A model generated the notes under the pieces. That model was not told the DNA's origin and did no database searches. It saw nothing but the letters and a program-made list of their open reading frames with translations. 64,000 nt of DNA from Gammaproteobacteria bacterium. Lineage in GTDB: Bacteria; Pseudomonadota; Gammaproteobacteria; Ga0077554; Ga007554. This document shows, piece by piece, positions 4,472 to 33,289 of this stretch (position 1 is its first letter; each line of letters opens with the position of its first letter). The position numbers were made by a program, and so were the translations under genes. Where the stretch lies: the NCBI GenBank assembly GCA_040183005.1, contig JAMPIW010000007.1, positions 62,001 to 126,000 on the forward strand, given 5' to 3'.

Positions 4472-7400
4472 CTGCGTTTGCCTCGTCTACGTCTTTCGCA
4501 TTGGCCCGTTTCAATCCTCACCCGGCGCGAAGGCCGGGTGCTGTCCGGCGCGCACTGGCACGGCGTATGATACCGGGAGCGTTTCAATCCTCACCCGGCG
4601 CGAAGGCCGGGTGCTGTTCGTGGTGCTGCTGTTATCGGAGTCATCACTGCTGTTTCAATCCTCACCCGGCGCGAAGGCCGGGTGCTGTTATGACCTCTAA
4701 CATCGCCAGCTATCGAAAAAACAGTTTCAATCCTCACCCGGCGCGAAGGCCGGGTGCTGTAGGGATTGGAGAGTAAAATGAAAGCCACGGAAAAGTTTCA
4801 ATCCTCACCCGGCGCGAAGGCCGGGTGCTGTAGTCTGCATCGTTCACCCACGTTGATTTTGCCCTTGTTTCAATCCTCACCCGGCGCGAAGGCCGGGTGC
4901 TGTTCTCATTGAGGATGGAGAGGTCTACCCTGCAACAGTTTCAATCCTCACCCGGCGCGAAGGCCGGGTGCTGTGTATGGAGTAAACCAATACTCGCCGG
5001 TGTCCGTGTGTTTCAATCCTCACCCGGCGCGAAGGCCGGGTGCTGTTTTCCACCTGTCCGGCCACCGCAAATGTAATAGGGTTTCAATCCTCACCCGGCG
5101 CGAAGGCCGGGTGCTGTTGCGTTTGTCCGCAAGCACAGCCGGGCAGAACGCGTTTCAATCCTCACCCGGCGCGAAGGCCGGGTGCTGTCAGCCCTTGATC
5201 GTAGGCGTCCCGCCGATCAGCTCGTTTCAATCCTCACCCGGCGCGAAGGCCGGGTGCTGTTTTCAACGATATCGAGTTCGCCATATTTTTGTCGGTTTCA
5301 ATCCTCACCCGGCGCGAAGGCCGGGTGCTGTCAAAGCACAACCGGCAACAAAGGAGAAGTAAAATGTTTCAATCCTCACCCGGCGCGAAGGCCGGGTGCT
5401 GTGCAGTCACGCTTAGTGGGACGAGGGAGCGATTATGGTTTCAATCCTCACCCGGCGCGAAGGCCGGGTGCTGTGATTTGGGGGCCGACGCCAGCGCAGA
5501 CGAGGTATGTTTCAATCCTCACCCGGCGCGAAGGCCGGGTGCTGTTTGATGTTGCCGCTAATGCGGCTCGCGTGGGACTGGTTTCAATCCTCACCCGGCG
5601 CGAAGGCCGGGTGCTGTGCCAGTTTTCGTTTGCAACAGGAGTCAGATTCTGGTTTCAATCCTCACCCGGCGCGAAGGCCGGGTGCTGTCGCACATTTCCG
5701 TCAAGATAGCTGTTTATAAAGTGTTTCAATCCTCACCCGGCGCGAAGGCCGGGTGCTGTGCCAGAGTGTCGCGTGGTTGTCAACAGGTTCGAAGTTTCAA
5801 TCCTCACCCGGCGCGAAGGCCGGGTGCTGTAAGAGCAGGCTCAAGCAGCAGGCCGCTCAATCCTGTTTCAATCCTCACCCGGCGCGAAGGCCGGGTGCTG
5901 TATGGGGAAATGAGGACGCTCTTGGGTGCAAATATCGTTTCAATCCTCACCCGGCGCGAAGGCCGGGTGCTGTGCCACCCACAAAAGCCAACTTGCCCAA
6001 CAGCAGCGCGTTTCAATCCTCACCCGGCGCGAAGGCCGGGTGCTGTGCGAGACAAAAAATAGCGCGACGCCCGCATAGATGTTTCAATCCTCACCCGGCG
6101 CGAAGGCCGGGTGCTGTACCATATCCAGTCACTAACTACAACCAGTCACTAGTTTCAATCCTCACCCGGCGCGAAGGCCGGGTGCTGTGTTCCAACAGGT
6201 CTTGAACCAGCTTCGATTTACTGTTTCAATCCTCACCCGGCGCGAAGGCCGGGTGCTGTATAAATTTTCGCGGGCACTCTTGACAGACGAAATGTTTCAA
6301 TCCTCACCCGGCGCGAAGGCCGGGTGCTGTAGTCAGATTTTTGGATTGCCAGGATTGAAAAAATGTTTCAATCCTCACCCGGCGCGAAGGCCGGGTGCTG
6401 TGCGGAGTCTGCGAGGGGAGGGATGATGCGCTCATATGTTTCAATCCTCACCCGGCGCGAAGGCCGGGTGCTGTCACACGGGCTCTGCAAACACTGCGGC
6501 GGGGATCTGGTTTCAATCCTCACCCGGCGCGAAGGCCGGGTGCTGTATGAGCGGATTATGCTCCACCTATGTGGGCGCAAGTTTCAATCCTCACCCGGCG
6601 CGAAGGCCGGGTGCTGTCCGAAACGCCCAAGCGTGGGATCAAATTTAAAGCGTTTCAATCCTCACCCGGCGCGAAGGCCGGGTGCTGTATGCTAGGGCTT
6701 GCTGGGACGACGGCCCGAATAACTGTTTCAATCCTCACCCGGCGCGAAGGCCGGGTGCTGTTTGCCACACAATAGGCGGAGATGATGGCCGAATCAGTTT
6801 CAATCCTCACCCGGCGCGAAGGCCGGGTGCTGTGAGGCAGCGCGTGATCCACTGTGGACCGCCTATCAGTTTCAATCCTCACCCGGCGCGAAGGCCGGGT
6901 GCTGTGCTTTGTTGTAGTGGGTTATGCTCCGTTTTTCGGTGTTTCAATCCTCACCCGGCGCGAAGGCCGGGTGCTGTGGATGCTATTACGGTATTATCAG
7001 CCTGGGCAACTGTTTCAATCCTCACCCGGCGCGAAGGCCGGGTGCTGTCTCGATGATTAACTTATATCCACCTCCGGTGAACGGTTTCAATCCTCACCCG
7101 GCGCGAAGGCCGGGTGCTGTCCGTCACAACTACGGAGTCACCAAAGCGCTGACGGTTTCAATCCTCACCCGGCGCGAAGGCCGGGTGCTGTCTCGAACTG
7201 TAGGCGGGCGTTGGTCACATGGTCCTTGTTTCAATCCTCACCCGGCGCGAAGGCCGGGTGCTGTTAACTGGGGTAGTCATGATTAACGATCCTCAATGTG
7301 TTTCAATCCTCACCCGGCGCGAAGGCCGGGTGCTGTCGGGATGCAAGCGGCGCATCACACGTGCTGCGGCGCGGTTTCAATCCTCACCCGGCGCGAAGGC

Positions 7401-9270
7401 CGGGTGCTGTATTTTCGTATCTCCTTTGGTTAATGTGATGCTAGTGTTTCAATCCTCACCCGGCGCGAAGGCCGGGTGCTGTAGGAGGCACGCGCCCCAC
7501 TGGACGCCACCTATCGGGTTTCAATCCTCACCCGGCGCGAAGGCCGGGTGCTGTACCCCACCCCTTATACGTGCTCAGTCCGGCCACCAGTTTCAATCCT
7601 CACCCGGCGCGAAGGCCGGGTGCTGTACCCCTGCGCCAACTACAGCAGTTCGATACCGCCGTTTCAATCCTCACCCGGCGCGAAGGCCGGGTGCTGTTTG
7701 TCAGTATCCAAACATATAAATCACGATTACCGTTTCAATCCTCACCCGGCGCGAAGGCCGGGTGCTGTTCGCTAAAGGGCGGCAAGTCTTTGCATGGTAC
7801 TTTGTTTCAATCCTCACCCGGCGCGAAGGCCGGGTGCTGTGCACGCACTATCAAATAGCCGATACGTGGTTAAAGTTTCAATCCTCACCCGGCGCGAAGG
7901 CCGGGTGCTGTATCTATCGGGCTTGAGTGGGCTGGGCGGTGGACTGGTTTCAATCCTCACCCGGCGCGAAGGCCGGGTGCTGTAAGTCAACCCCTACTGG
8001 TTAAAGGCTACCCGGTTGTTTCAATCCTCACCCGGCGCGAAGGCCGGGTGCTGTCTTATAAAATGACTTTAAAACGCAAAGCAATAAGAGTTTCAATCCT
8101 CACCCGGCGCGAAGGCCGGGTGCTGTGATTGGCGCCGGTGCGCTTGTCATTGTTTTGCTAATGTTTCAATCCTCACCCGGCGCGAAGGCCGGGTGCTGTA
8201 TAAATGTCCGCCGGGGTATCTCCATTATCGTGCGGTTTCAATCCTCACCCGGCGCGAAGGCCGGGTGCTGTGATTCCGATCCGAATTTTGCTCCCGCTGA
8301 TTATCGTTTCAATCCTCACCCGGCGCGAAGGCCGGGTGCTGTTTACGTCAAGATTACCGAGCGCCTCACAAGGGTTGTTTCAATCCTCACCCGGCGCGAA
8401 GGCCGGGTGCTGTAGGGATTATTGATGGTAGGCAGTTATGTTGCACAAGTTTCAATCCTCACCCGGCGCGAAGGCCGGGTGCTGTGCGTATGAAAGCGCA
8501 ATCGGATTTTCTTTGAAAAGTTTCAATCCTCACCCGGCGCGAAGGCCGGGTGCTGTTGTGTCAATAGACTTTTGACAGATTCTAATGCGTGTTTCAATCC
8601 TCACCCGGCGCGAAGGCCGGGTGCTGTCATTTTTCAACACCTTTAATTTAACGGCCGATGCGTTTCAATCCTCACCCGGCGCGAAGGCCGGGTGCTGTCG
8701 TGCTTGTTATATTGGCGAGTAATCCATGATTTGTTTCAATCCTCACCCGGCGCGAAGGCCGGGTGCTGTATCACTGACCGCCGGAACACATTTTCATGCG
8801 GCTGTTTCAATCCTCACCCGGCGCGAAGGCCGGGTGCTGTAGGCATAATCACGGATTGCTTTATCAACGGGTTCGGTTTCAATCCTCACCCGGCGCGAAG
8901 GCCGGGTGCTGTTTCATGATTGTTCCTGTTTATTTTAGTCAACAAAATGTTTCAATCCTCACCCGGCGCGAAGGCCGGGTGCTGTAAATGATTGCCAGCT
9001 CAAAGAACATTCAACATATGTTTCAATCCTCACCCGGCGCGAAGGCCGGGTGCTGTAATAGGTAATAAATGGATTGTGCTTGAAACGACTGTTTCAATCC
9101 TCACCCGGCGCGAAGGCCGGGTGCTGTGCATCTCAACACTACATGATTGACCAGTTAAAGGTGTTTCAATCCTCACCCGGCGCGAAGGCCGGGTGCTGTA
9201 TTTTCCGCATCAATGACGATCAAGCCGCGTAGGGTTTCAATCCTCACCCGGCGCGAAGGCCGGGTGCTGT
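4435..9270 (-). CRISPR. CRISPR array, 68 repeats and 67 spacers, subtype I-C associated
   Basis: A 37-bp unit recurs every 71-73 bp; I counted 68 copies, the leftmost one degenerate. Spacers are 34-36 bp. Read on the minus strand, the repeat consists of ACAG, an 8-bp stem strand CACCCGGC, loop CTTCGC, stem strand GCCGGGTG, and AGGATTGAAAC. Direction is shown by three things: the ATTGAAAC 3' end, the degenerate copy at the far left, and the cas genes at the right. The leader is therefore at 9271-9451 and the newest spacers are at the right. Cleavage at the 3' base of the stem would leave an 11-nt 5' handle, the length reported for Cas5-processed I-C crRNA. In reading the internal copies I saw no variant. 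Spacer targets cannot be identified without a database search. Confidence 0.98.
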
Positions 9271-9451
9271 AGTACAACTGCAAGATGATGATACACCGAA
9301 AAAAATCGCTCAGAAAGCGCGAACCTATGATATTTCAGCGTTGCTGATGGAGAGTGGTTCAAGTGCCGGAGCAATTTCATCATATTTCACATAGTGTTAG
9401 ATTGAGCGCGAACATCCCCGGGATTTGAGCATCACTATAGGTTCGCGCATT
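9271..9451 (-). promoter_or_regulatory. CRISPR leader with a 12-bp inverted repeat
   Basis: This 181-bp AT-rich stretch lies between the leader-proximal repeat and the cas2 stop, which is the leader position. It contains the arms GCGCGAACCTAT (9317-9328) and ATAGGTTCGCGC (9437-9448), exactly complementary and 108 bases apart, plus another GCGCGAAC near 9395. The leader should hold the pre-crRNA promoter and signals that direct spacer integration; IHF-type sites were not resolved by eye. Confidence 0.7.
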
Positions 9452-9742
9452 TCAGATAATCAGCGGTGCTTCAAAATCGATGGCCTGGAAATTTCCATAC
9501 TCTTTTACGTGTAACTCAGTCGGCTCAGTTAACCGATACAGTCGCAGATTGTCTTCCTTTTCATCAATCTCAGCCAAAAGCCTGCGCACAAGATCCTCGT
9601 ATTGCATAAGATTTACGCGGCACTCAAACACCGATTTCTGCACGCGCTGACCGGTACTTTCGCACACTTTGGCTACCCGCCGTAATCTCTTCCTGCCCGC
9701 AGCGGTTTCGGTGGATACGTCATAGGTGACGATAATTAGCAT
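9452..9742 (-). CDS. cas2: CRISPR-associated endonuclease Cas2
   Basis: The product is 96 residues, normal for Cas2. It starts [20 protein letters not shown]; the Asp after the first beta strand is the conserved acidic residue, and the strand-helix pattern with [11 protein letters not shown] is the ferredoxin-like fold of Cas2. Cas2 dimers bridge two Cas1 dimers in the spacer integration complex. It begins 3 bases after cas1 ends and is the last gene of the cas operon before the leader. Confidence 0.97.
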
Positions 9743-9745
9743 GAT

Positions 9746-10780
9746 TTACCTCGTCAGAAAAGGTACATAGCCTTCCATCTCACCACGGATAGTTCTTGCC
9801 ATGAACCGCGCCTGGAGTTGGGGCAACAGGCCGATAGGAACTTTTGTTTCCAGGAGGGGGTGAGCAATTTGTTCTTGTTTACGTTCTTGATAGGCTATAA
9901 CAACGGTTTTTCGAGCGTCATCACCGAGATAAACCGCGCCTCCTTCTCGCTCCAGAAAATCTTTGGCGCTGATTTGGGCGCGATTGATGAGCGTAAGTGC
10001 AAGGCGATCCGCCAAAATGGCACGAAACTCTTCCATCAAGTCGAGGGCTAGCGCCGCCCTGCCCGGCCTTACGGCATGCAGAAACCCCAGCTGAGGATCA
10101 AGGCCGACAGACTCCAGGGCTGAACGGCAATCGTTCATTGTCATTGAGTAAAGAAACGACAGCAACGCATTAAACCGATCCCGGGGTGGCCGACGTGAGC
10201 GGCCATTCATGGTAAAAGCTTCCCGCGCATCCGTGCGCAGGAGGCAATGCAGGGAAGAAAAATACACCTTCGCTGAATCGCCCTCGATGCCGCGCACCAC
10301 GTCCAAATCACCCGAGATGGCAAGGTTTCGTAAGGACCCTGCAAGAGAATCAGCAGCACGGCTCAATTGCTGCTGGTCTGCAACGTTACCCGCTTCGCGC
10401 GCGCCCCGCATTAGCACCTGCCGGGCATTTTTTATTTTTCCGGCAATCACGGCGCGCGACACATCAACAGCAAACCCTGAGTTTTCGGAGGCGCGATGCT
10501 GGGCCTGACGCAGCAGGATATTCCCGCTCACGGCCCCTTCCAGTCGCGCCTTAAAGCGCCCGTTGCGATCCAGTAAGACAATACTGATACCCTCATCCGC
10601 ACAGCGGTGCATGATCGCGGGAGACAACATGACGTCACCAAAGCACACCACCGCTCCGATATGATGCAACGGCGCCTGCATTTTCTTTTCGCGCTCCACG
10701 TCGATACGAATGGTATCGTTCTCCAGATGCAGGTAGGCGTTTGGTGTCATAACGTAAAGCGTATTGAGGATTTGTTGCAT
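9746..10780 (-). CDS. cas1: CRISPR-associated integrase Cas1 (type I-C)
   Basis: The product is 344 residues, the usual size. The conserved metal-binding residues are visible: Glu in RGIEGDSAKVYF, His in LGFLHAVRPGRAALALDLME, and acidic residues in that same segment. Cas1 with Cas2 inserts new spacers at the leader end. The start is preceded by AGGAG with good spacing. The first 20 bases of this gene and the region just upstream are duplicated 1060 bp away (11821-11933), so the cas4/cas1 junction was rearranged; the cas1 gene itself is intact. Confidence 0.97.
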   Translation of the reverse strand: MQQILNTLYVMTPNAYLHLENDTIRIDVEREKKMQAPLHHIGAVVCFGDVMLSPAIMHRCADEGISIVLLDRNGRFKARLEGAVSGNILLRQAQHRASENSGFAVDVSRAVIAGKIKNARQVLMRGAREAGNVADQQQLSRAADSLAGSLRNLAISGDLDVVRGIEGDSAKVYFSSLHCLLRTDAREAFTMNGRSRRPPRDRFNALLSFLYSMTMNDCRSALESVGLDPQLGFLHAVRPGRAALALDLMEEFRAILADRLALTLINRAQISAKDFLEREGGAVYLGDDARKTVVIAYQERKQEQIAHPLLETKVPIGLLPQLQARFMARTIRGEMEGYVPFLTR

Positions 10781-10873
10781 AGAGCTCCTATTGAGAGTTT
10801 GGCAATGTCATGTGTCACACTTCATCAGGCTCAAACAGCCCACTTCTCAGGTTATGTATTTTCCTGGTGGCGG
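10761..10873 (-). repeat. Direct repeat copy A: duplicated cas4-3'/cas1-5' junction
   Basis: This 113-bp stretch matches 11821-11933 with only four mismatches seen by eye (10800, 10803, 10852, 10863). It covers the cas1 start codon and first codons, the intergenic AGGAG region, and the last codons of a cas4 gene (ending RSGLFEPDEV). The two copies are exactly 1060 bp apart and bracket the MNT-HEPN pair. Confidence 0.9.
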
Positions 10874-11009
10874 AAGTTTTCAGGATTTGAATCAAGGTAC
10901 GTATGGCCGCAACGGTAAAATCTCCTTTCAGATAAATTAGCCCACAACGGCGCGGACAGGAGGTGTGTTGGTTAAGCGCAGATATGGGAATGGGTTCAAC
11001 GTCAACCAC
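10815..11009 (-). pseudogene. Internally deleted second cas4 (64-residue remnant)
   Basis: A GTG-started frame of 64 codons with AGGGA upstream. Residues 1-30 (with PISALNQHTSCPRRCGLIY) match the N-terminus of Cas4 proteins, including the first iron-sulfur Cys region. The rest (TVAAIRT... then KIHNLRSGLFEPDEV) matches the C-terminus of the intact cas4 at 11875. About 140 residues are missing, including the RecB-like nuclease core and the C-terminal Cys cluster. The N-terminal half is clearly diverged from the intact cas4, while the last 15 residues are nearly identical, so the remnant probably came from a different cas4 and had its 3' end homogenised or duplicated. The frame stays open across the deletion, so a short protein could still be made; the nuclease function is lost. 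Confidence 0.8.
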
Positions 11010-11019
11010 GGGTCTTTCC

Positions 11020-11409
11020 CTATACGGCGATCATCTGTTCGACATGGGCCAGCAATACACGCACGTTCTCGACCTCCTCGGCGCGGTTAATAGGCTCATC
11101 CAGCTCGGTGACACCTTCTTCATAGCGCGCCTGAACCGCGAACATGGTGTACTGAACCAGTGGCCAAAATTTTTCAACCTCCGCCCCCTGGTTCTCCAAT
11201 AGGGTAAACAGTCGTGTCAGATCGTGCGTCATTGGATAGATGGCGTCTCGAGTACAGAGCCATGCCTTCAGCGCCTTTTCCACTGCTTGCTGGACGTGAA
11301 AGCCAAAAATTTCATCGGCAAATAACGGATTTTCCCGCATTCCGACGAGTGCGTTGAAGTCCTTATGCGCCATGCGCAACATGGAGCGGGCATGTTCAAG
11401 GTCGGCCAT
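11020..11409 (-). CDS. HEPN-domain protein, partner of the MNT nucleotidyltransferase
   Basis: The product is 129 residues. The segment FHVQQAVEKALKAWL followed by IYPMTHDLTRLFTLL is the signature of the HEPN family of helical proteins (Pfam HEPN, PF05168-like). Such proteins are encoded with MNT nucleotidyltransferases and many pairs act as toxin-antitoxin systems, the HEPN partner being an RNase in HepT-type cases. The classical R-x4-6-H RNase motif is not obvious here (RDAIYPMTH has seven residues between Arg and His), so toxicity is uncertain. Start 11409 was chosen for the strong AAGGGAGGG six bases upstream; an in-frame start at 11448 lies inside the MNT gene. It overlaps the MNT 3' end by 14 bases. 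Confidence 0.8.
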   Translation of the reverse strand: MADLEHARSMLRMAHKDFNALVGMRENPLFADEIFGFHVQQAVEKALKAWLCTRDAIYPMTHDLTRLFTLLENQGAEVEKFWPLVQYTMFAVQARYEEGVTELDEPINRAEEVENVRVLLAHVEQMIAV

Positions 11410-11743
11410 GAAGCACCCTCCCTTCACGATGAGCCCTTCCAACGACATGGTTCAAGGAATTTTTCCAGTGGTCGAATTCATCCCGGCTGTACAGGAGAAT
11501 ATCCTTGGAAATCGCCAGCCCCCTTAACGCCATGTACAAGCGTGCCGCTTCCTTGCGACGGCTGCGCTGGGGCGAAAACGGTTCTTTTTCCACCACGAGC
11601 AAGTCAACGTCGGAGTCAGGCCTTGCATCGCCCCGCGCGCGCGAGCCGAAGAGGATGATGGCTTCCGGGGCAACCTCGCGGACGATGGTTTCCACCATTT
11701 GCCGTAGCAGAGTTTCTTCGTTACTGGAATGGATTTTGGTCAT
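11396..11743 (-). CDS. MNT-type minimal nucleotidyltransferase
   Basis: The product is 115 residues, typical of minimal nucleotidyltransferases. The active-site motif GSRARGDARPDSDVDLLVV is complete: Gly-Ser, then the Asp-x-Asp that binds metal and nucleotide. In MntA-HepT pairs this enzyme is the antitoxin and adenylylates the HEPN toxin. The start has an excellent ribosome site, AAGGAGG, seven bases upstream. A 21-bp palindrome lies 46 bases upstream of the start and may be its operator. The pair sits between cas4 and cas1 in the same orientation, bracketed by 113-bp direct repeats, so it looks like an insertion in the cas operon. Confidence 0.85.
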   Translation of the reverse strand: MTKIHSSNEETLLRQMVETIVREVAPEAIILFGSRARGDARPDSDVDLLVVEKEPFSPQRSRRKEAARLYMALRGLAISKDILLYSRDEFDHWKNSLNHVVGRAHREGRVLHGRP

Positions 11744-11840
11744 GTCGTTCCTCCTTATTATTCGTGCCTTTTGTGCAATCGTACACCTTTCGGTGGATTA
11801 TCCACCGAATGACATAGCGTGTATTGAGGATTTGTTGCAT
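11721..11840 (-). pseudogene. cas1 5' fragment left by the junction duplication
   Basis: The first seven codons (MQQILNT) and the ribosome site are identical to those of cas1; after 20 bases the sequence diverges and the frame stops after 39 codons, overlapping the start of the MNT gene. It shows that the intact cas4 was once followed directly by cas1 and that the MNT-HEPN block separates two copies of that junction. The 39-residue product is unlikely to do anything, but its translation could influence MNT translation. Confidence 0.75.
11789..11809. promoter_or_regulatory. 21-bp perfect palindrome upstream of MNT-HEPN (candidate operator)
   Basis: The arms TTCGGTGGAT and ATCCACCGAA flank a single central base. 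A perfect 10-bp dyad 46 bases before the MNT start suggests a binding site for a dimeric regulator, as in autoregulated toxin-antitoxin operons. No other copy was noticed in the window. Confidence 0.55.
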
Positions 11841-11933
11841 AGAGCTCCTATTGAGAGTTCGGTAATGTCATGTGTCACACTTCATCAGGCTCAAACAGCC
11901 CACTTCTCAGGTCATGTATTTTACTGGTGGCGG
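11821..11933 (-). repeat. Direct repeat copy B: duplicated cas4-3'/cas1-5' junction
   Basis: This copy includes the true 3' end of the intact cas4 and the aborted cas1 start. About 96 percent identical to 10761-10873. Together the two copies define a block of about 1.06 kb containing MNT, HEPN and the cas4 remnant. Confidence 0.9.
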
Positions 11934-12513
11934 CCACAGCTTCTGGTTGGCAAGTTTCTTTCAGCGAGCACTCCTTGCAGCGGGCATCATTAACGGGCGG
12001 GGGGAGTTTGCCGGATGCGAATAAGGTACGAATAGCCGCTACGGTTTCCTCAACTTGATAACGCAGGGTATCGGTGATTTCAACTTCACGGCGGCGGCGT
12101 GAGCTGTGATGATAAATCGCGCCACGATGAATCGCTTTGCCGGTCATCTCCTCCAGGCAGAGTGCTTGGGCAGCAAGTTGCAGATCGTCATGATGTTTCT
12201 GCCGCTTTGGCCCGTGTTTATACTCCACGGGATAAGGCGTGCCATCGGGTAAAAACTCCACAATATCGGCTTTGCCGACCAAGCCCAGGCGATCACAATA
12301 AAGCGGCAGGGCGCGTTCAGTACGCGCACCACCGTTTTCCGAAAACCCAGGATCATCCACCCGTTCATGTACGGCATTACCGCGCATGGTATGCACATTT
12401 TCAGCGAATGCCTGCTCTATGTGAATCAGCGCATACTGACGCGGACAATAGCTATAGTGCTGGAGGGCCGAGAGCATAATGGGTTCAATTCCCTGGCCGT
12501 CCATGCCAATCAT
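11875..12513 (-). CDS. cas4: CRISPR-associated exonuclease Cas4
   Basis: The product is 212 residues. It has the first Cys in YSYCPRQYALIH, the RecB-like nuclease core (GKADIVEF with the metal Asp, then VEYKHG as the E-x-K motif, then QLAAQALCLEE) and the C-terminal cluster CKECSLKETC that completes the 4Fe-4S site. Cas4 trims and selects PAM-containing pre-spacers for Cas1-Cas2, a standard member of I-C systems. The start ATG overlaps the hicA stop as ATGA, so its translation may depend on ribosomes finishing hicA. A second start three codons later is also possible. The gene ends inside a 113-bp direct repeat. Confidence 0.95.
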   Translation of the reverse strand: MIGMDGQGIEPIMLSALQHYSYCPRQYALIHIEQAFAENVHTMRGNAVHERVDDPGFSENGGARTERALPLYCDRLGLVGKADIVEFLPDGTPYPVEYKHGPKRQKHHDDLQLAAQALCLEEMTGKAIHRGAIYHHSSRRRREVEITDTLRYQVEETVAAIRTLFASGKLPPPVNDARCKECSLKETCQPEAVAATSKIHDLRSGLFEPDEV

Positions 12514-12752
12514 CCAAATAACCGTTGCAACAGTTCCTCGCGCGACACATGATGGTGTGCAGCCACATCGGCAAGAATCGCCGATAAGGTGCCGATGCGC
12601 AAAGGAACATGGTTAGGTATTGTTACGTGGTGCTGCACCGGAGAATCGCATGTGAGGCGGACATGACTACCGCTCTGGCGCGACACTCTGTAACCGAGTT
12701 TCTCCATTTTCATGATCAGTTCCGCACTCGTGAGGCCGCGCGGCAATCTCAT
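12510..12752 (-). CDS. hicA: HicA-type mRNA interferase toxin
   Basis: The product is 80 residues with the double-stranded-RNA-binding-like fold typical of HicA. Key features are LTSAELIMKMEKLGY, then SGSHVRL with the catalytic His, then HVTIPNHVPLRIGTL. HicA cleaves mRNA when not bound by HicB. Its start overlaps the hicB stop by four bases, and its stop overlaps the cas4 start by four bases. The frame is open upstream but the start at 12752 fits both family length and coupling. Finding it inside a cas operon, between cas7 and cas4, is unusual. Confidence 0.88.
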   Translation of the reverse strand: MRLPRGLTSAELIMKMEKLGYRVSRQSGSHVRLTCDSPVQHHVTIPNHVPLRIGTLSAILADVAAHHHVSREELLQRLFG

Positions 12753-12955
12753 ACGGCGATAACCTCTTCTCGTGTAAAGTGGAGGCGGATCATGCGCGGC
12801 TCTTTTCCTTCTTCGAAATGACAACGCACAGCATCCCGCACGCGCGCGTGAAGGGTTTCGATATCATCGGCTTCTGTAAAGATGGATTCGCCTAAAGCAC
12901 GCGCGGTATACCCCCCCTCTGGGGCGTTCTCAACTAAAAACAGGATTTCGTTCAT
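12749..12955 (-). CDS. hicB: HicB-like short antitoxin
   Basis: The product is 68 residues (MNEILFLVENAPEGGYTARALG...). It is the short HicB-type partner that usually precedes hicA; database entries of this kind are often mislabelled as an oxoisovalerate dehydrogenase subunit. It contains only the partial RNase-H-like fold that binds HicA and has no visible DNA-binding domain, so it may not autoregulate transcription. GAGGAG lies upstream; ATG at 12955 or GTG at 12958 could be the start. The 4-bp overlap with hicA is normal for this module. Confidence 0.8.
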   Translation of the reverse strand: MNEILFLVENAPEGGYTARALGESIFTEADDIETLHARVRDAVRCHFEEGKEPRMIRLHFTREEVIAV

Positions 12956-12985
12956 CACTATTCACTCCTCGTTTATATCTACACT

Positions 12986-13117
12986 TTAGCCTATTTTGCG
13001 TTCGAGCGTTATTCCCTTATGTGCCAGCGCATGGCCGAGTTTAGAAGCATACTTGAACACATAAAGCCTGCGCGTGGTCATCTTGGTGTGAGGGGTGGAC
13101 TGCGCGCCGATTTCCAT
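12986..13117 (-). CDS. Possible 43-residue small ORF between cas7 and hicB
   Basis: A short frame with ATG at 13117 and GGTGG eight bases upstream encodes a basic peptide (with RRLYVFKYASKLGHALAHKG). No family was recognised. It occupies most of the 195-bp gap between cas7 and hicB, and its composition looks plausible for a coding remnant, possibly the tail of a lost gene. It may equally be chance. Confidence 0.25.
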   Translation of the reverse strand: MEIGAQSTPHTKMTTRRLYVFKYASKLGHALAHKGITLERKIG

Positions 13118-13150
13118 ATTTTTACCACCCGCCAGCACAATATTCCTTCG

Positions 13151-13996
13151 TTAAAATCCATCAAGGATTTCTGGGGTCAATCCATTGAGCGGATCAAGCT
13201 TGATATTACCATCAGGCTGCACTGTTAGCGTACGGTGAACCTTGGCGGAGGAATACTGCCCTGATTTACTGTTATGCTGCCACCAGAGCACTTTTAGCAC
13301 TTCCATACTTCCTGCCGGTCTGGCGGATGACTCATCGTTTTCGAATATCTTCGGAAGCAACTGCTTGATCGCTCCAGCGTCGGCGTCGCTGAACCCTGTT
13401 CGTTCGGCCAACTGTGGATTCATACTACCGAAGAAAACGTAAACTCCCTTATCCACGCGGTGTTTCATGCCCATTGTGTCGGAGCCGCGCTTGCTGCCGT
13501 CTCCCTCGCCGCTAACACTTTTGGTGATCTGTGTGCTGCTGACATCGACTGGCTCTACGCTGAATGCAGACTGAACAGTGACGGGGCCACGAATGCCAAT
13601 GGACACGCCGCTATCTCCTTCGCTGTCCGCTTCTTTTTTGCCCTTCTTGTCAGCTTTGAACGCAAAAAGTTGACCAAATGCACGAACGTCAAACCATTGT
13701 TCGCAAGCCAGCTTCGCTGTTTCGCTTGAGCCAAGTTTTTTGCCAAGCGCTGCATCTGCTCTTGCTTTGAGGCTCTTGAAATCGTCTTTTTTTCGATCAT
13801 CAGACTGTACAAAAATACTTTGACCGCTCTCCAGCAGTCGATCTCTGAGCTTACGTTTAATGCAAACGTCAGTAATTTCACCATGCCCGTCATAGTCCGC
13901 GCGTGGGCGATTGCCGTTAAGCGGATCGCCGTTGGGGTTGGCGTGCGTGACGCGAAGGACAACGGCAAAGTCGATTTTGTTTTGTAATGTGCTCAT
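13151..13996 (-). CDS. cas7: Cas7 (Csd2), Cascade backbone subunit, type I-C
   Basis: The product is 281 residues starting MSTLQNKIDFAVVLRVTHANPNGDPLNGNRPR, the conserved N-terminus of Csd2/Cas7c. The start at 13996 was chosen for AAGGA seven bases upstream and the family N-terminus; the frame is open much further upstream inside cas8c. Several copies of Cas7 bind the crRNA spacer along the I-C Cascade. Ten bases separate it from cas8c. The C-terminal half keeps the family pattern (GMKHRVDKGVYVFFGSMNP, LKVLWWQHNSKSGQYSSAKV). Confidence 0.95.
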   Translation of the reverse strand: MSTLQNKIDFAVVLRVTHANPNGDPLNGNRPRADYDGHGEITDVCIKRKLRDRLLESGQSIFVQSDDRKKDDFKSLKARADAALGKKLGSSETAKLACEQWFDVRAFGQLFAFKADKKGKKEADSEGDSGVSIGIRGPVTVQSAFSVEPVDVSSTQITKSVSGEGDGSKRGSDTMGMKHRVDKGVYVFFGSMNPQLAERTGFSDADAGAIKQLLPKIFENDESSARPAGSMEVLKVLWWQHNSKSGQYSSAKVHRTLTVQPDGNIKLDPLNGLTPEILDGF

Positions 13997-14006
13997 GATG
14001 TTTTCC

Positions 14007-15983
14007 TTAAATGGTTTCGGTAGAGGTGGCTTCAGTATTCTCGTCTTGTTCCGTTTCAGGTTTTTCTCGGAGTTTTTGTCGCTGGCAGTGGTAGCCCAGT
14101 AAAAACTCCCCGGATAGCTTTCTTTCATCAATGAAGTCGTCGCCCTGAAACAAACAAATGACTTCATCAAGCTGCCTTTCCCTTGTATATAAAAATCCCG
14201 GCGCTCTTGAACGGAGGCGCGACTTGTAAGGCGCCAATGAAAGCTCAATATTTCGCCATGTCGGGTTCGGGTGGTCGGCGAAACGTTGCATGAGTTTTGC
14301 AGCCGATGTATCGCGTGACTCTTTTGTCATATCCAGCGCAAATTTCTCGATGTTTTCCGCAATCGCTAAAAGTCGGCCATACAAATAATCGCGTGTGGTT
14401 CGATTCAGTTCTAATGCCATTTGGTAACCCCTTTTTTTGTGATAACCCCTAGATAAAGCACAGGCAATGCCCAACACTTTTTCCCACTCATCCTCATACA
14501 TCTTGCCGTTGCGCTTTTTTCTTTCCATCCCTAATCTGTTGCAAGCCCTTCGGGTTACTGATTCAACCAAATCACGAGGAACTAATTGCCCATCAATAAT
14601 ACAGGGCAGTAAACGCTCCACTGTTGCATTGCGTAGCTTCTCGTTCAATCTGCGACCGAAGGCAGCTTCTGCAATATCCTTAGGCGCGGGTGCACCGATG
14701 AACTTCACTTCCTTGCCGAAGTCCTGGCCATAGTTTTGATACCAGGCATGATCTTTATGCCATGCTTCAATTCTCTCAAGAAATTCAGCGCAACCAGGTT
14801 CCCGATAGTAGGTCATCGCCATGCGACCGGGGGTGGCCGAATCCAGGCCCATCACCACAATCTCATTGGTGGAGCCGAGTTCTGCCCGATACCCGGCAAG
14901 GAGCTTTGCAAGTCGCTTACCAAAGGCTTGCCCTGCATCACCTTGAGGCACATGCTCAGGCACTTGTTCGGTTTCTGACTCATCTGTTGCAACACCAAAT
15001 AGCTCAAAAGAATTGTCCGTCGGGGCGGGTATCCTTTTGCCGGACACAGCCCACGCAACAATAGCTTGATCGCCATTTCGATATGCCTGTCGCGCAATCA
15101 GCCAACGCAAAGCGTTATGTGCTTTTTGTGTGACCTCGAAGCCCACCCCACATGCTTGGTCAGCATCAATAAATCTCCCGCGAAACGTAAAGCCGCTGGT
15201 GTCATTGGATGAAATGAATTTTGCTTTATCCGCGCCATGTCTGAGTTTGGCGGGATGTTGCTCTGCCAAATTCAGAATATCACCTGTGACCAAACAAAGC
15301 CCTTTGCTATCTTTTTGGCTGCTGTAGAAGCCAATCCAAGCATCCATCAAACCCTGATCTTTCCAAGTTTCCGGCAAAGGTTCACCAGGGATTTCCACTC
15401 GCCAACGAATGACTGCACCATCGGGGGAATTGCCGTTAGGCATGATGCCGAAAATCGCGGGCGCTTCTTTTTTGTCGCCTATCCACTCCGCCAGCAACTG
15501 TCCATCCTCATTGATGGGCAAGATTTTTTCTCGCACAAGATCGCCAACTAAATTCCCGTTCTGCACATAAGTTTGAATCGCGATTATTTTAGGATGCGTG
15601 AAAGATGAATTCGCCCAGTCGGACAAAAGAGATAGGTAAATCTTATGAGGTTCTGTTGGCTCGCCTGCAAACCCTGATGTTACCACACCGCCAAATTTGA
15701 GAAAGTCACCCGCGAGGTATTGCAGCTTGTCGCATAGTGGGTGATTGATGGGCTTGCTTCCAGCCCGACCAACAGATGCTTCTGTGCATGGCACAAGCGT
15801 CACGCCTTGCCCTTTTGGAATTACATTGGCACGTAAGAAACCACCTTTTCCGTCAATACTCACCTCGATGTGCGCTTGTTGGGAGGTATGGCATATTGGT
15901 TCCAGCGAAGTCCCGGTATTCGACAAGTCAGCTTGACCAGCACACTGCTCATAAGTCTCATAGAGTTTCTGAATCCAGCTCAT
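14007..15983 (-). CDS. cas8c: Cas8c (Csd1), large Cascade subunit, type I-C
   Basis: The product is 658 residues, at the long end for Csd1. The N-terminus ([13 protein letters not shown]), the segment [29 protein letters not shown] and the C-terminal part with [35 protein letters not shown] are characteristic. Cas8c recognises the PAM and starts R-loop formation; in I-C systems a small-subunit protein (Cas11c) is often made from an internal start in the 3' part of this gene. Its start overlaps the cas5 stop as ATGA. This gene defines the system as subtype I-C. Confidence 0.95.
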
Positions 15984-16711
15984 GTCAACTCCTCTAACGA
16001 CAAAGGCTCCTCATTTTCTACATCAAGAAGATTCTGCCCACGCTCAAATTTCTTCATGGTCATTTCCCTGACGAACTTACGAAGTTTGCAGTCCTCGGGG
16101 CGAGTAAATCGAATCACCCCATTCACCATCGTGGGTTGCCAAAAGCGAGTATGGAGATTGTTGTCACCAGTTTCATCGGGATAATCAAACCCGTGAAACA
16201 TGAGTCCGTAAGCAAGTTCACCATCATGATCGTAAGCCCCTTCCCCAGAACCAAACTTGCAAGCTTCGACATAGCCTTGGCAATCACGGGTGCCAAGAAA
16301 AATGTCTTGGCGACCGCCACGTTCCAGCATTCGCTTGGCGACGATGTGATGCTTGGATTCGTTGCGGTCTTCCACTAGTTCAGGCCGGTGCATATTCCAT
16401 TCAAAATGCGCTTTCACCTGATATTCAACATCCGACAGAAAAGTGTAGATCGCCAAGGTGTTGCCACCGCAATACTCCCGTGGCTTGGTGCCTTTGGTCT
16501 GAGTGCGAATGCGCTTCATCACCCGAACTTCGTCAATCACCCAAACAATGGTGGGCTTCCAGTAGATCGACTTGGCAACGCCCTTGAGAGCCTCGTAAGT
16601 CGGGATATGGTATGAACACTTCTCGCCGCCGATTTTTGTCAACGGGTCGGTGAACAGGGCAAATCGCCCCCACACCTTGAATTCAATGCTGCTTCTAGCT
16701 GGAACAGACAC
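15980..16711 (-). CDS. cas5: Cas5 (Cas5c/Cas5d), crRNA-processing Cascade subunit
   Basis: The product is 243 residues. In I-C systems Cas5 is the catalytic pre-crRNA endonuclease that replaces Cas6. The motif [16 protein letters not shown] contains the Lys-His pair reported as catalytic in this branch. The start is a GTG with a strong GGAGG six bases upstream, giving a 17-bp overlap with the cas3 end. It also overlaps cas8c by 4 bases, so cas3-cas5-cas8c are tightly coupled. Confidence 0.95.
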
Positions 16712-19196
16712 AAAGAGCCTCCATTATTCCTTTGGGCTCTAAACTCAGCCCAAAATCTTCGTTGTAGTAGCGGGCATCTGATAGATAAAGAATATCCACC
16801 CCCGTTTGTATTTCATGCAAGGCATTCTCCTTTTGTAGCTTTTCCAACTGGTGAGGAAATACGTTGACGGTATATTGCTGCGCCCGGCGCAAGAGTTTAA
16901 ATTGCTTTTCAACCTCGAATGCCCCGCAAAGCTCACCAATCAATTTTTTTCCCGCACTTCCGTAGGGAACGATAACACCCCGAGTCGGCGCATCAATCGA
17001 GTTGAACGCCTTGGCAGCAGCCATGAATGACTGACGAAGATACAGATTGAAAGGCGTGCCATGACAACGGTGAAATTCCTCTGCTGCATTGGCATTGCCA
17101 GCAAGCAGATTTAACAACGTGTCGTCATGTCCCAATACTTTACTGCTTACCGGGTAATCCATTTCGCCGCGTCGCTCCGCAAAATAGTAGTTGAAGTAGC
17201 AAGCTATAGCAGACGGACTAAGCAAGTCGTTGTCAAATTGGGCGGGATCTTTTTCAAATTCGTCGAGAAGCCGCTCTGTAACACGCTGCCCACAAGCGAT
17301 GTCCACGAGCATATCCACTCGCTCTTCGCTGAGGTTGACGACATGGACATGCCCAATATCACGCAGTCCATTCCGGTTGCATCTACCCGCTGCCTGCGCA
17401 ATGGAGTCCAGTCCTGCAACTGAGCGGATAACCGCACCAAAATCCACATCCACGCCCGCTTCAATCAATTGGGTGCTGACGCATAGTATTGCCTCCTGGG
17501 CTTTAAGGCGTTGCCGAATTTCCGCCAGAATTGCACGTCGGTGAACTGGACACATGCTCGTACTCAAGTGATATATCGGCATGGCTGTCTTCTCATCGCG
17601 GCACAACTGAAATATCGCTTGAGCCGATTTCTTGGTGTTGACGATCACTAGGCAGCTATTAGCTTTTCTGGCTTCTTCCATTGCAAGAGTTGCAACTTCC
17701 TTATCTGACCAACCTCCGGGTTTTCTCCGATTGAGAACTTCGACCCGTTTGAGCTTTCTGAAAAGCTCACCCACATCAGGCATGATTTCATTGCTCGGTG
17801 GAATGCGTAGCGCACCTTTGGATTGCTCGACCATATCCATGAGTGGTTGTGTGGCTGTGCATAACACGACTGTCGTGCCGCAATGTTCAACGAGATAATT
17901 GATAGCGTTGCAGAAGAGGTGAATGCAATTGACGGGTAGTGTCTGGATTTCATCAAATACCAATACGGCATTGGCTAATTGATGCAACCGCCGTGCTCCG
18001 CGTGTACCCGCACCGAACAGCGTTTCTAGCATCTGTACGTTGGTGGTGTAAATGACTGGTGCATCCCAATTTTCGACCAATATCTTGGTTATCCAATTTT
18101 CCTCTTCCGGCATAAGGTTGGAATGATGCTCAAGCACAACGCTGCCGGTTTTCACTCCATCCGGTTCAAGAATTTTCAGAACCACGTCGGCATTCTGGTC
18201 GATAATAGAGGTAAAAGGAATGGCATAAATCACCCTATCCATTTTGTGTTTTTTAGCGTGATGCAGAGCAAAGCGCAGGCTGGCGAGAGTCTTGCCGCCT
18301 CCCGTTGGAACCGTCAAGGTGTAGATACCTTTGCCCTTCTCTGCTTTGTCCCGGCAATGTTGAGAGATGCTGAGACGCAGTTCGTCGATGGGATGTTTGG
18401 CAACAAAACTTGATAGACGCATATCAAGCCGATTTATCAAATGCGTCCAATTGCCATATTGTCCATGTCTCCTAGCCTTTGCGGCGTGTGGTTTTTCAAA
18501 GTCAGCACTGTTGATACGGTCGGCATCAATCAGGCAACTGAACATATATCGAACAAGCAGCCCAACCTTGAATCGGATAATTCGTTCATCGCCACGGCTT
18601 TCTCCACGTACAATTTTTCCAATGGATTCTTTGATGCCGTTAATAATCTCTTCTGGACTGTTCACTAATTCATGAAAGCGAGCCTTAACTGTATCGTCCA
18701 TTTTGTCCATAGCTTCCCGAAGATGGGTGCGATCATCTGATTTTCTAATTCTCCTGGTGAAGTTATCTGCCCCTAAGCTTTTAGTGTCCGAAGACAGGCA
18801 ATCAATCAAGCCTGAATGGTGGGATGCGATGCACAAGGCGAGTATCTGACCAACGACTTTTCCAAGCTCGCCGTGCTTAGAAAATTCTTGCCAAATTAGC
18901 TGCGCACCAGCTGTGGAATGGTCTACCTTTCCTTTCTTGCTCTTCGCATCAACATAATCATCTTCGTCTTGGTCGATCAAACCCACGGCCGATTTCAGAT
19001 AAATCTGAAACTCATCGCTGTACTTGCCCAAGTCATGGAGCAGACCAATCAGCTCGCCTTGATTCTGCAAGCCAATCTTGGCTGCCAGTGACTTTGCAAT
19101 TATCGAAACCTCAAGTAGATGAGCCTCTAAACTTTGCTCTTTTCCATCTGACTTTCGTTGATGTGCAATGTAGGTCATCGCGTCGCTATTGTCCAT
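16695..19196 (-). CDS. cas3: Cas3 helicase-nuclease, type I-C
   Basis: The product is 833 residues with an N-terminal HD nuclease ([26 protein letters not shown]) and an SF2 helicase: Walker [14 protein letters not shown], the DEIQTLP box, motif III CTATQP, and motifs V-VI in [13 protein letters not shown] and [11 protein letters not shown]. All key residues are visible, so it should be active in unwinding and degrading target DNA after Cascade binding. It is first in the cas operon. The start may be 19196 or six codons later; neither has a clear ribosome site. Confidence 0.96.
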
Positions 19197-19382
19197 TGGT
19201 TGATAGCATAGATGGGGTGCTCAATTCATTCGCCAGACGTACCCGGCCGAACATGAGCCAAAAATGGGTTTCCGGGGTTTTTCATAACTCACTCAAATTA
19301 AGGCTGTAGCTTTGTCTTGTTGTTCTTTTTACCATAGGCACAGGCTCAAAAGCTGAGCCTCTGAATGGCCCGTGAAAAATAT
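19197..19382 (-). promoter_or_regulatory. Region upstream of cas3 with a 7-bp-arm hairpin
   Basis: This 186-bp gap lies between the WYL regulator stop and cas3, and should contain the cas operon promoter if cas3 is not co-transcribed with the regulator. It holds the inverted repeat AGGCTCA / TGAGCCT at 19343-19361 with a 5-base loop and no T-run, so it could be an operator or a weak terminator of the regulator gene. Confidence 0.45.
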
Positions 19383-20360
19383 TTATACGTCGCGGCCATA
19401 TCCCTTCAATGCCTCCCATAACCGCTCAACAACCTCCTTCCGTAACCCCTCCGGCCCCACCACTTCCACGTCTGGCCCGTATTTCAGGATATCCATGATC
19501 AATTCACGAGAATCACCGTAGGGTATGCGCAATTCATAGCTGCCGTCTTTCAACCAGCTCCCTTGCTGGGCGGGGTGCCATTGCTCGTCGGCTACCCAGC
19601 GGGCGCGCTCGGGGGTGAAACGGAGTATGGCGGTGTGGGTGGCTTGGCCTGCGAAGATGCCATAAGCGCTGGTGAAGTGAAGGTCGAGTTGGGTGTCGTT
19701 GATGTCTTCAGCGGGGTTGTTTAGTGTGCGGGCGTTTTGAATGCGGTCGATGGAGAAGCTGCGCAGGGCTTGCCGTTGGTGGCACCAGCCGTCTACGTAC
19801 CAGTTGTCGCGGTAGTGGACGAGCCGTTGCGGTGAGATTTCGCGTTCGGTGAGTTGGTTTTTTTCGCGCCCGAGGTAACAGAGATGCAGGCGTTTGCGTT
19901 GCATTAGGGCGCCGGCGACAGTTTGGAAAGATTCGCCTGTGATGCGCCGTGCGGTGCTGTATAGAATGCGTACGCGGCTGGGGAGTTCGCCGCTGCCGAG
20001 GTGTTCGGTTTCGAGGATGGTTTCGATGCGTTTGCGTAATGGGGAAAGATGCGTTTCCAATAAGCCGGGCTGGGTTTGATTCAGTAATTGCTGCACGGCG
20101 AGCAGGGCATAAAGTTCGGAGGCGTTGAACCAGAGGCCAGGGAGTTCGTAGGGATGTTCGCCGCTTTGTGTGTAATGATAGCCGTTGGCTTTGCGATCAT
20201 AGACGATGGGTGCGCCGATGAAATTTCGCATGTCTTCGATGATGCGATTTAACGTGGCGCGGGAGCATTCGAGGCGCTGTTGAAAAATCTGCCCCGGCAC
20301 AGGATAACGTGCGTTACGCAGTTCTTTGTGCAGGGCGTAGATGCGGTCGAAGCGATCCAT
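19383..20360 (-). CDS. HTH-WYL domain transcriptional regulator of the cas operon
   Basis: The product is 325 residues: an N-terminal winged helix (about 1-60, with RATLNRIIEDMRNFIG), a WYL domain (about 145-215, with NWYVDGWCHQRQALRSFSIDRI) and a C-terminal WCX-like region. WYL proteins bind nucleic-acid or nucleotide ligands and are regularly found beside CRISPR-Cas and other defence loci (CapW, BrxR and the Synechocystis CRISPR repressor type). It lies directly upstream of cas3 in the same orientation, so it is the probable regulator, most likely a repressor. Its start lies 85 bases from the divergent MFS gene. Confidence 0.88.
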   Translation of the reverse strand: MDRFDRIYALHKELRNARYPVPGQIFQQRLECSRATLNRIIEDMRNFIGAPIVYDRKANGYHYTQSGEHPYELPGLWFNASELYALLAVQQLLNQTQPGLLETHLSPLRKRIETILETEHLGSGELPSRVRILYSTARRITGESFQTVAGALMQRKRLHLCYLGREKNQLTEREISPQRLVHYRDNWYVDGWCHQRQALRSFSIDRIQNARTLNNPAEDINDTQLDLHFTSAYGIFAGQATHTAILRFTPERARWVADEQWHPAQQGSWLKDGSYELRIPYGDSRELIMDILKYGPDVEVVGPEGLRKEVVERLWEALKGYGRDV

Positions 20361-20445
20361 GAGTTTTTTGTTTTGTTATGAGCCTCATGACGCTACATTA
20401 AGTCATTACCTTGCGCAAGTGTTGATTGGTGAGATTATTGCTACC

Positions 20446-21624
20446 ATGAAAAAGCCCCTTCCTCGCACTGTTGTCATTCTCGGGCTGGTCAGTTTTTTTA
20501 ATGACCTGGCCTCGGAAATGGTGACACCACTGATTCCCATCCTGCTTGCAACCGTGCTCGGCGCGGGACCTGTTGCGCTGGGGTTGATCGAAGGGATGGC
20601 CGATGCGGTGTCGAGTCTTCTCAAGCTCTGGTCGGGCAGATTCTCTGATGTGCTGGGCGGAAGGCGCAAGTGGCTGACATTTTATGGCTACCTGATTTCC
20701 AACATCGCCCGGCCAGCGCTGGGTCTGATTGGAAGTTGGTGGATGATGGCGGGTCTGCGCAGTATTGACAGGGTGGGGAAGGGCATTCGCACGGCTCCCC
20801 GCGACGCCCTTGTGTCGGATGCAGCGGCGCCGGAAATCAGGGGCTATGCCTACGGTTTTCAGCGTGCGCTGGACAATGCCGGAGGTATGGGTGGCAGCCT
20901 GCTCGCTGCCGCTGTACTGACGTTGTCATCCCTGTCATTGTCCCAAGTCATACTCTGGTCAGCCATTCCAGGGTTTGCCGGGGTCTTGCTGATTGCCTTT
21001 GGCATTAAAGAGAAGACCAAGGAGATCGATCCTCCGCAACGAGAGCCTCTCCCGCCTTTGAGCTGGCGGCTGCTTTCGGCGCCGATGCGGCGTTATCTGA
21101 TGGTGTTGGTGATTTTTACGTTCGCCCGTGCTTCCGAGACATTCATCGTGTTGCGCGGCAATGAGTTGGGCATGGGAGTGGTTGAGTTGCTACTGCTGTG
21201 GGCTGCGCTGAATGGCGCCAAGTCGGTATCCTCGTGGCGGGGCGGCAAATTGGCTGATGCCCTGGGGCTGGAAAGGCTGGTGCTGATAGGTTGGGTGGCC
21301 TACTCTGTCGGCTTCTTGTTGTTAGGCGCGGTGTCGCAAACTACCACCTTGTGGGCGGCGGCGATTACCTATGGTTTTCTGGCAGGTCTGAGCGAGGGAG
21401 GAGAGCGCGCGTTGATTGGCGCCTTTGCGGGGGCCGACGAACGCGGCACGGCCTTTGGCTGGTACAACATGGCATTGGGTTTGGCCGCTATTCCCGCAGG
21501 CCTGCTGTTTGGCGGGATCTGGCATTTCTGGGGCGCAGGCGTGGCATTCACCGCCGCAGGCCTGTTCGCGGCACTTGCTGCACTGTTATTGCATTTCTGG
21601 GCGAGGGTTTCTCTGAAACACTGA
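20446..21624 (+). CDS. MFS transporter
   Basis: The product is 392 residues with about 11-12 hydrophobic segments. The loop RVGKGIRTAPRDALVSDAA and LGGRRKWLTFYGY between helices 2 and 3 are typical of the major facilitator superfamily. It would be an inner-membrane secondary transporter; the substrate cannot be told. Start 20446 fits the first membrane segment (MKKPLPRTVVILGLVSFF); a longer frame runs back into the divergent regulator. It stands outside the cas operon and is probably the flanking chromosome. Confidence 0.85.
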   Translation: MKKPLPRTVVILGLVSFFNDLASEMVTPLIPILLATVLGAGPVALGLIEGMADAVSSLLKLWSGRFSDVLGGRRKWLTFYGYLISNIARPALGLIGSWWMMAGLRSIDRVGKGIRTAPRDALVSDAAAPEIRGYAYGFQRALDNAGGMGGSLLAAAVLTLSSLSLSQVILWSAIPGFAGVLLIAFGIKEKTKEIDPPQREPLPPLSWRLLSAPMRRYLMVLVIFTFARASETFIVLRGNELGMGVVELLLLWAALNGAKSVSSWRGGKLADALGLERLVLIGWVAYSVGFLLLGAVSQTTTLWAAAITYGFLAGLSEGGERALIGAFAGADERGTAFGWYNMALGLAAIPAGLLFGGIWHFWGAGVAFTAAGLFAALAALLLHFWARVSLKH

Positions 21625-33255: not shown

Positions 33256-33289
33256 CCCTTTGCTGGGGTGCGCCATGCAAGGTGGATTC

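Follow-up and report, generated by a model that had tools for sequence, protein, structure and literature searches.

Why does a toxin-antitoxin (TA) pair sit inside a CRISPR-Cas operon, and does the way in which it is joined to cas4 mean that the toxin governs spacer acquisition? The question is raised by a 64,000-nucleotide stretch of gammaproteobacterial DNA (here called the window), in which four bases of the minus strand, ATGA at 12513-12510, hold both the hicA stop (TGA 12512-12510) and a possible cas4 start (ATG 12513-12511). The hicB and hicA genes are joined likewise by the ATGA at 12752-12749 (hicB stop TGA 12751-12749, hicA start ATG 12752-12750). Direct reading confirms both overlaps, which an earlier note on this DNA had taken as a sign that hicBA is fused with its neighbours into one reading chain, that cas4 may be translated only by ribosomes that finish hicA, and that the state of the TA pair could change the Cas4 level. 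Our comparison with other loci leads to a wider answer. The finding worth keeping is a seat for TA modules where the adaptation genes begin or join, of which the hicA/cas4 overlap is one case.

The operon is encoded on the minus strand, as are all features of the CRISPR locus described below unless otherwise indicated, and runs in the order WYL regulator, cas3, cas5, cas8, cas7, hicB, hicA, cas4, mntA, hepT, cas1, cas2 and CRISPR array. Both cas7 (13151-13996; Csd2 of type I-C, TIGR02589, 314 bits) and cas1 (9746-10780; Cas1c, TIGR03640, 507 bits) scored above the cut-offs of their families, and these scores, together with the order cas3-cas5-cas8-cas7-cas4-cas1-cas2, identify the system as type I-C. 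The cas3 (16695-19196), cas5c (15980-16711) and cas8c genes (14007-15983, part of a variant I-C effector module) were assigned by similarity to the operon of the sister locus L002, and cas2 (9452-9742) by a search at the NCBIfam level. The cas4 gene (11875-12513, with an alternative start ATG at 12504-12502) encodes the Cas4c of type I-C (PF01930, 93.8 bits; PADLOC Cas4c). In the array (4508-9270, no strand assigned), a 37-nt repeat occurs 67 times without variation, at a spacing of 71-73 nt.

Moreover, a second TA module occupies the joint between cas4 and cas1. It consists of a mntA-type nucleotidyltransferase antitoxin gene (11396-11743; PF01909; PADLOC PDC-S09) and a hepT-type HEPN toxin gene (11020-11409; PF05168; start ATG at 11409 with a Shine-Dalgarno (SD) energy of -11.8 kcal/mol). 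As in MntA-HepT (type VII TA), the MNT antitoxin and the HEPN toxin are adjacent. The score against the MntA-like model NF047752 was 38.4, below the cut-off of 60, and the pair is therefore regarded as a divergent relative of MntA-HepT. Elsewhere in the window, a protein encoded at 33260-34426 beside a response regulator is one that we take to resemble JetD (DUF3322-DUF2220); no obvious Wadjet partners were seen among the open reading frames of at least 250 aa.

The hicA gene (12510-12752) encodes an 80-aa toxin that scored 45.5 bits against PF07927 (Pfam cut-off 27). The 68-aa product of hicB (12749-12955; alternative start GTG 12958; SD energy -8.4 kcal/mol), a compact antitoxin that lacks a DNA-binding domain, had no match at curated levels in Pfam or NCBIfam. 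We therefore used a structure model, built by AlphaFold with 19 aligned relatives from the same slot. The model has a mean pLDDT of 92 and the order beta-beta-beta-alpha-beta, which is that of the HicB fold as presented in PMC10865869, and its best named match in the PDB was E. coli HicB3 (6u0i; probability 0.98, with a weak E-value of 0.26). Position before hicA, the 19 relatives and the modelled fold together argue for the identity of HicB. Judged by sequence and model, the pair would belong to the compact class 2 of hicBA (Gerdes 2024, PMC10865869), described in that paper as having hicB before hicA, a HicB of 60-90 aa without a DNA-binding domain, a HicA of 60-85 aa and genes that are close or overlapping, all of which the window shares; toxicity and its neutralisation are predicted. 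The passages on genetic contexts there do not mention cas genes, and cas4 and cas7 do not appear in that main text.

Compared with L002, dN/dS is 0.058 for hicB and 0.104 for hicA, next to 0.05-0.07 for the cas genes; both TA genes are under purifying selection. A consensus scan gave no sigma-70-like promoter upstream of hicBA, which is weak negative evidence, and since HicB also lacks a DNA-binding domain, hicBA is probably transcribed together with the cas genes. We also considered a HicA lineage dedicated to CRISPR loci and rejected it, as slot and non-slot HicA proteins are intermixed on a tree whose resolution is low for a protein of 80 aa.

To what extent is such an arrangement peculiar to this operon? 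Among 80 cas4 relatives found from the window cas4, cas7 and cas4 are commonly separated by some 400-1300 bp, the content of which varies. Against the bias of a search with one cas4, a second set was assembled from all I-C cas1 genes above the curated cut-off, and their loci were read; it drew on two surveys, in which 32 of 369 genomes of the class and 25 of 398 genomes of the phylum had a cas1 match. Once duplicates had been removed, the effector/cas4 joint held classical TA genes in 68 of 128 I-C loci, or 75 of 128 with TA-like genes, and the cas4/cas1 joint in 18 of 133 loci (19 of 133 with TA-like genes). Other joints were almost devoid of TAs: cas8/cas7 (0/120), cas1/cas2 (0/128) and cas5/cas8 (0/112) add up to 0/360, and cas3/cas5 had one in 104. 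The corresponding Fisher p values, 2e-25 for effector/cas4 and 4e-6 for cas4/cas1, are uncorrected for relatedness, and kinship of the loci inflates the raw counts. Only eight inserts of at least 200 bp in the seat joints carried neither a TA nor a TA-like gene. Gaps of at least 200 bp were present at cas5/cas8 in 11 of 112 loci, some of them with a divergent cas8, where we take the gaps to be putative missed 5' ends of cas8.

In the class survey, which was sampled without regard to TAs, 18 of 32 seats were occupied, the window and three loci of the cas4 search included; in addition to these 18, VapC lies before cas4 at a contig edge in L085. In the phylum survey a TA was found in 5 of 24 loci, always ParE with Unstab, and 19 of 24 were without one. 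The pattern is thus strong in the class of the window and patchy beyond it.

At least eight unrelated TA families were found at these joints. HicA, ParE with Unstab_antitox, PemK with RHH, DUF433 with DUF5615, Gp49 HigB with the HI1420 antidote, MNT with HEPN and PIN_3 with PhdYefM were confirmed by Pfam, and PIN was also found with DUF2281, the latter below its cut-off. Further Pfam matches in the seat were RhuM, DUF4258, KilA-N, and DUF6883 with DUF4926. The same joints are occupied in L019 and L073 (cas4/cas1) and in L096 (cas7/cas4) by small proteins that, from their sequence, resemble retropepsin-type aspartic proteases, while a long protein before cas4 in L043, L045 and L057, adjoined by a HicB relic in L045, looks to us like a DUF1016/YhcG-type nuclease.

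Occupants have changed often. A cas1 tree with 133 rows requires at least 49 changes in the type of occupant at effector/cas4, 16 in the state occupied or empty, and 19 in the occupant at cas4/cas1. Since relics and mixed occupants are among the labels, the 49 are changes of state and not clean swaps. For example, one clade of ten rows with short branches has VapC, ParE, MntA and empty seats together. Tandem TAs were found in L009 (DUF433-DUF5615-HicBA) and L055 (HicBA-MntA), and relics as an orphan HicB in L010 and L013 and as HicB beside ParE in L008 and L058. These tandems and relics show a succession of TAs at the seat.

Some occupants lie on the opposite strand, and two sequence elements were noticed near them. 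In L006, L014, L021 and L029, where an opposite-strand PemK-RHH pair sits at the cas4/cas1 joint, the palindrome TTGTAATACAA lies a few bases upstream of the cas1 start and may be an antitoxin operator. In L006, L008, L016, L023, L026, L027 and L058, which comprise most loci with an opposite-strand ParE-Unstab, the shared stretch ATGATAGCACCACTG(C/A)CATGAACGAA precedes cas4. It contains a -10-like TATGAT in several loci, and is a possible divergent promoter for cas4.

The seam in the window, with two TAs and the relics of swaps, bears the traces of such exchanges. Between cas7 and hicB, at 13016-13102, lies what is left of another Cas7, of the canonical I-C kind, namely its C-terminus (59% identity over 29 aa, E 6e-8). 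The present Cas7 is only about 30% identical to canonical I-C Cas7, and the relic behind a variant effector indicates that the effector module was exchanged ahead of hicBA-cas4. Similar cas7 relics precede the TA in L002, L010, L032 and L057. A second relic, at 10815-11009, was recognised by sequence comparison as a cas4 that retains about 28 N-terminal and 30 C-terminal amino acids and has lost its middle; its N-terminus is nearest to the cas4 of L038, L055 and L070, loci with mntA-hepT or mntA before cas4. Moreover, a 125-nt direct repeat, whose two copies are 93% identical, flanks mntA-hepT and this internally deleted second cas4. One copy (11809-11933) covers the 3' end of cas4 and the 5' end of cas1, and the other (10749-10873) the end of the cas4 relic and the cas1 start. 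L002, which is otherwise 95-97% identical, lacks the mntA-hepT-cas4 cassette. The simplest account is that the cassette came in by recombination at the cas4/cas1 border, which would mean that TA and cas4 can travel together.

We then return to the junction from which the question arose. The hicA/cas4 overlap is retained in L002 (95% identical). In 18 loci hicA immediately precedes cas4, and the distance from the hicA stop to the cas4 start was -4 to +5 nt in all 17 junctions that could be read, the 18th (L047) being masked by Ns. This tight spacing is reached by differing codons (ATGA, TGATG, TAATG and TGAATG). For three hicA genes of the same family that lie outside the slot in other genomes, the next open reading frame begins 134-336 nt downstream, and the closeness is thus a property of the slot and not of hicA.

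The cas4 start itself is less certain than the overlap suggests. When aligned with 13 homologues, the Cas4 proteins of the window and of L002 show three additional N-terminal residues (MIG), and the homologues begin near residue 4 of the window protein, the Met of ATG 12504. As MIG is missing in the homologues, the true start may lie 5 nt after the hicA stop and not overlap it. The start may thus be at -4 (ATG 12513) or at +5 (ATG 12504), and homology favours the latter; ATG 12477 is unlikely, because conserved residues would be lost. A later Met had been named beforehand as a case that would speak against coupling, and such a start is indeed a candidate here, yet a distance of +5 nt still permits re-initiation by the same ribosome. 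It follows that start calls for cas4 in such loci depend on the adjoining gene.

Does cas4 then depend on hicA for its translation? The strict form of the earlier proposal, by which cas4 is translated only by way of hicA, is not supported by two natural situations: L034 carries a nonsense codon in mid-hicA with cas4 intact, and 17 other arrangements have an opposite-strand TA ahead of cas4, which shows that cas4 does not require a preceding cistron. Nor is the close joining peculiar to the toxin. Where loci of the same groups have no TA, cas4 in most cases starts -4 to +12 nt after cas7, and it also lies close behind the ends of VapC, DUF5615, HigA and HepT. Tight packing is thus the default for cas4, and, judged by the I-C loci without hicBA, a coupling would be general and not bound to a toxin.

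The ribosome-binding sites were also compared. In the window, the SD energy of cas4 is -2.4 kcal/mol for ATG 12513, a value matched or bettered by 43% of random positions, or -3.1 kcal/mol for ATG 12504, and those of hicB, hicA, mntA, hepT, cas1, cas2, cas5, cas7 and cas8 range from -5.9 to -11.9 kcal/mol; the predicted cas3 start (ATG 19196) likewise has no SD match. Across 16 hicBA loci, however, the median for cas4 (-2.6) was not different from that for cas1 (-3.1; p = 0.48) or cas2 (about -2.1; p = 0.39). The weak site, although real in the window, was therefore dropped as a proof of coupling.

Natural deletions within hicA are more telling. Two independent events, one shared by L010 and L013 and one in L041, both removed part of hicA in frame and left mini-hicA reading frames of 24 and 28 codons, respectively (L013:5906-5980; L010:5909-5980; L041:5927-6013). 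All three loci have an open frame and keep the two overlaps, in the order hicB-ATGA-mini-ORF-TGATG/TAATG-cas4, and the frame has stayed open even as the peptide diverged between L010 and L013. The chance that two of two deletions are in frame is about 1 in 9, and these remnants, which fit translational coupling, are suggestive only.

Taken with the constant spacing and the weak cas4 site in the window, the in-frame deletions lend partial support to the idea that hicBA has become a link of the reading chain, but not that this is specific to the toxin. It is plausible that translation of cas4 is coupled to hicA, in the same general way as to other genes that precede it. By contrast, the reading of the earlier note, in which the state of HicA and HicB specifically tunes the Cas4 level through translational coupling, seems to us very improbable. 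It has in its favour the ATGA overlap, the 17 tight junctions, the weak site in the window and the mini-hicA remnants, and is opposed by the equal spacing behind cas7 and other TAs, by L034 and the opposite-strand TAs, by the possible start at ATG 12504 and by an SD weakness that is not specific. HicA-specific control of Cas4 is thus unsupported.

Starting from the observed seat, its TA content and turnover, the tight junctions and the purifying selection on hicBA, we consider it most likely, with a probability of roughly 55%, that complete TAs of unrelated families repeatedly fill and replace each other at the joints of the adaptation genes as addiction modules. In I-C operons of beta- and gammaproteobacteria, they would seat at effector/cas4 and less often at cas4/cas1. 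The antitoxin would be needed continuously from inside the operon, so that deletions through the middle of the CRISPR locus would be punished. TAs on the same strand would be inserted tightly, with cas4 starting a few nt from the toxin stop, and ribosomes finishing hicA would probably re-initiate on cas4. Such re-initiation would keep the adaptation genes expressed, and the overlap would represent seamless packing rather than a special toxin signal. The many I-C loci with an empty seat, such as the 19 of 24 in the phylum survey, and seats with an orphan antitoxin or a decayed toxin (L010, L013, L031 and L034) indicate that addiction would not always hold.

The main rival to addiction is hitchhiking at a permissive seam, to which we give a minor but real share of the probability. 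If the border between effector and adaptation genes recombines and insertion is cheapest there, abundant mobile TAs would land and persist for some time with no benefit to CRISPR. Effector modules have indeed been swapped at exactly the border of the seat, as the cas7 relics in the window and the four loci named above attest, and effector exchange in situ around fixed adaptation genes has already been described (PMC6452270). Hitchhiking also explains well why TAs occur in both orientations and why decayed ones exist, and a module border that tolerates insertion could produce this pattern too, were TAs the only frequent arrivals. Against it, the inserts are nearly all TA or TA-like, with hardly any transposase or other cargo, and changes between occupied and empty (16) are far fewer than changes of occupant type (49). 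Moreover, hicBA is under purifying selection, and TA density in the genome is low (4 HicA, 10 nucleotidyltransferase-type and 7 ParE matches in 3.3 Mb).

A different role for the toxins, namely that they slow or kill the cell when CRISPR fails or spacers are acquired, with the expression of Cas4, Cas1 and Cas2 tied to the TA, would follow a hypothesis put forward in general terms by Makarova et al. 2012 (PMC3506569). Every seat touches adaptation genes, and HEPN, HicA, PIN, PemK and ParE are typical dormancy toxins; we nevertheless find such a coupling of immunity to dormancy unlikely, as no sensor is common to eight unrelated families. According to the same paper, typical antitoxins do not seem to be encoded in immunity loci, whereas complete pairs are found here, so that no Cas protein is needed as antitoxin. 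Slightly more doubtful still is the proposal that the adaptation genes are controlled by whichever TA occupies the seat, a change in TA state gating spacer acquisition. On the same strand this would act through ribosomes that pass from toxin stop to cas4 start, and on the opposite strand through a shared divergent promoter and an antitoxin operator at the start of cas4 or of cas1.

Addiction of a CRISPR locus has a precedent in CreTA and CrePA, which guard type I (I-B and I-F) loci by means of an RNA antitoxin and Cascade (reviewed in PMC12737573). There, as here, a toxin module lies within a type I cas locus, and it is thought to hinder loss of the locus. The RNA antitoxin of CreTA derives from degenerate CRISPR repeats and acts via Cascade, whereas in the present seats both partners are proteins and the families vary by locus. 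We looked for a guard of the CreTA type in the window and rejected it: no CRISPR-repeat-like sequence rose above shuffles in 9441-20500 (best 22/37, against 20-23 in shuffled sequence), although very degenerate repeats could escape this search. Numerous TA modules linked to Class 1 and Class 2 systems, which could safeguard cas genes, are reported in the main account of the FLSHclust survey (Altae-Tran et al. 2023, PMC10910872); that account describes no fixed seat, replacement of families at one joint or coupling to cas4, whereas the pattern around the window has both a seat and replacement. Within the open-licence literature, we found no description of a TA seat, be it in I-C operons at large or at the step from cas7 to cas4, an absence that is not a proof. 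TAs near CRISPR loci and guarding by CreTA are thus known, and what appears new is that TAs have a fixed seat bordering the adaptation genes, which is filled again and again.

If the seat holds, it would provide a simple and checkable rule, by which protein TAs of interchangeable families stand at the border of the spacer-acquisition genes, and it would go against the 2012 statement that immunity loci seem to be without typical antitoxins (PMC3506569). It would also extend the addiction of CRISPR loci from the RNA-based CreTA to ordinary protein TAs, and offer a direct test for the question whether toxin modules prevent the loss of CRISPR loci.
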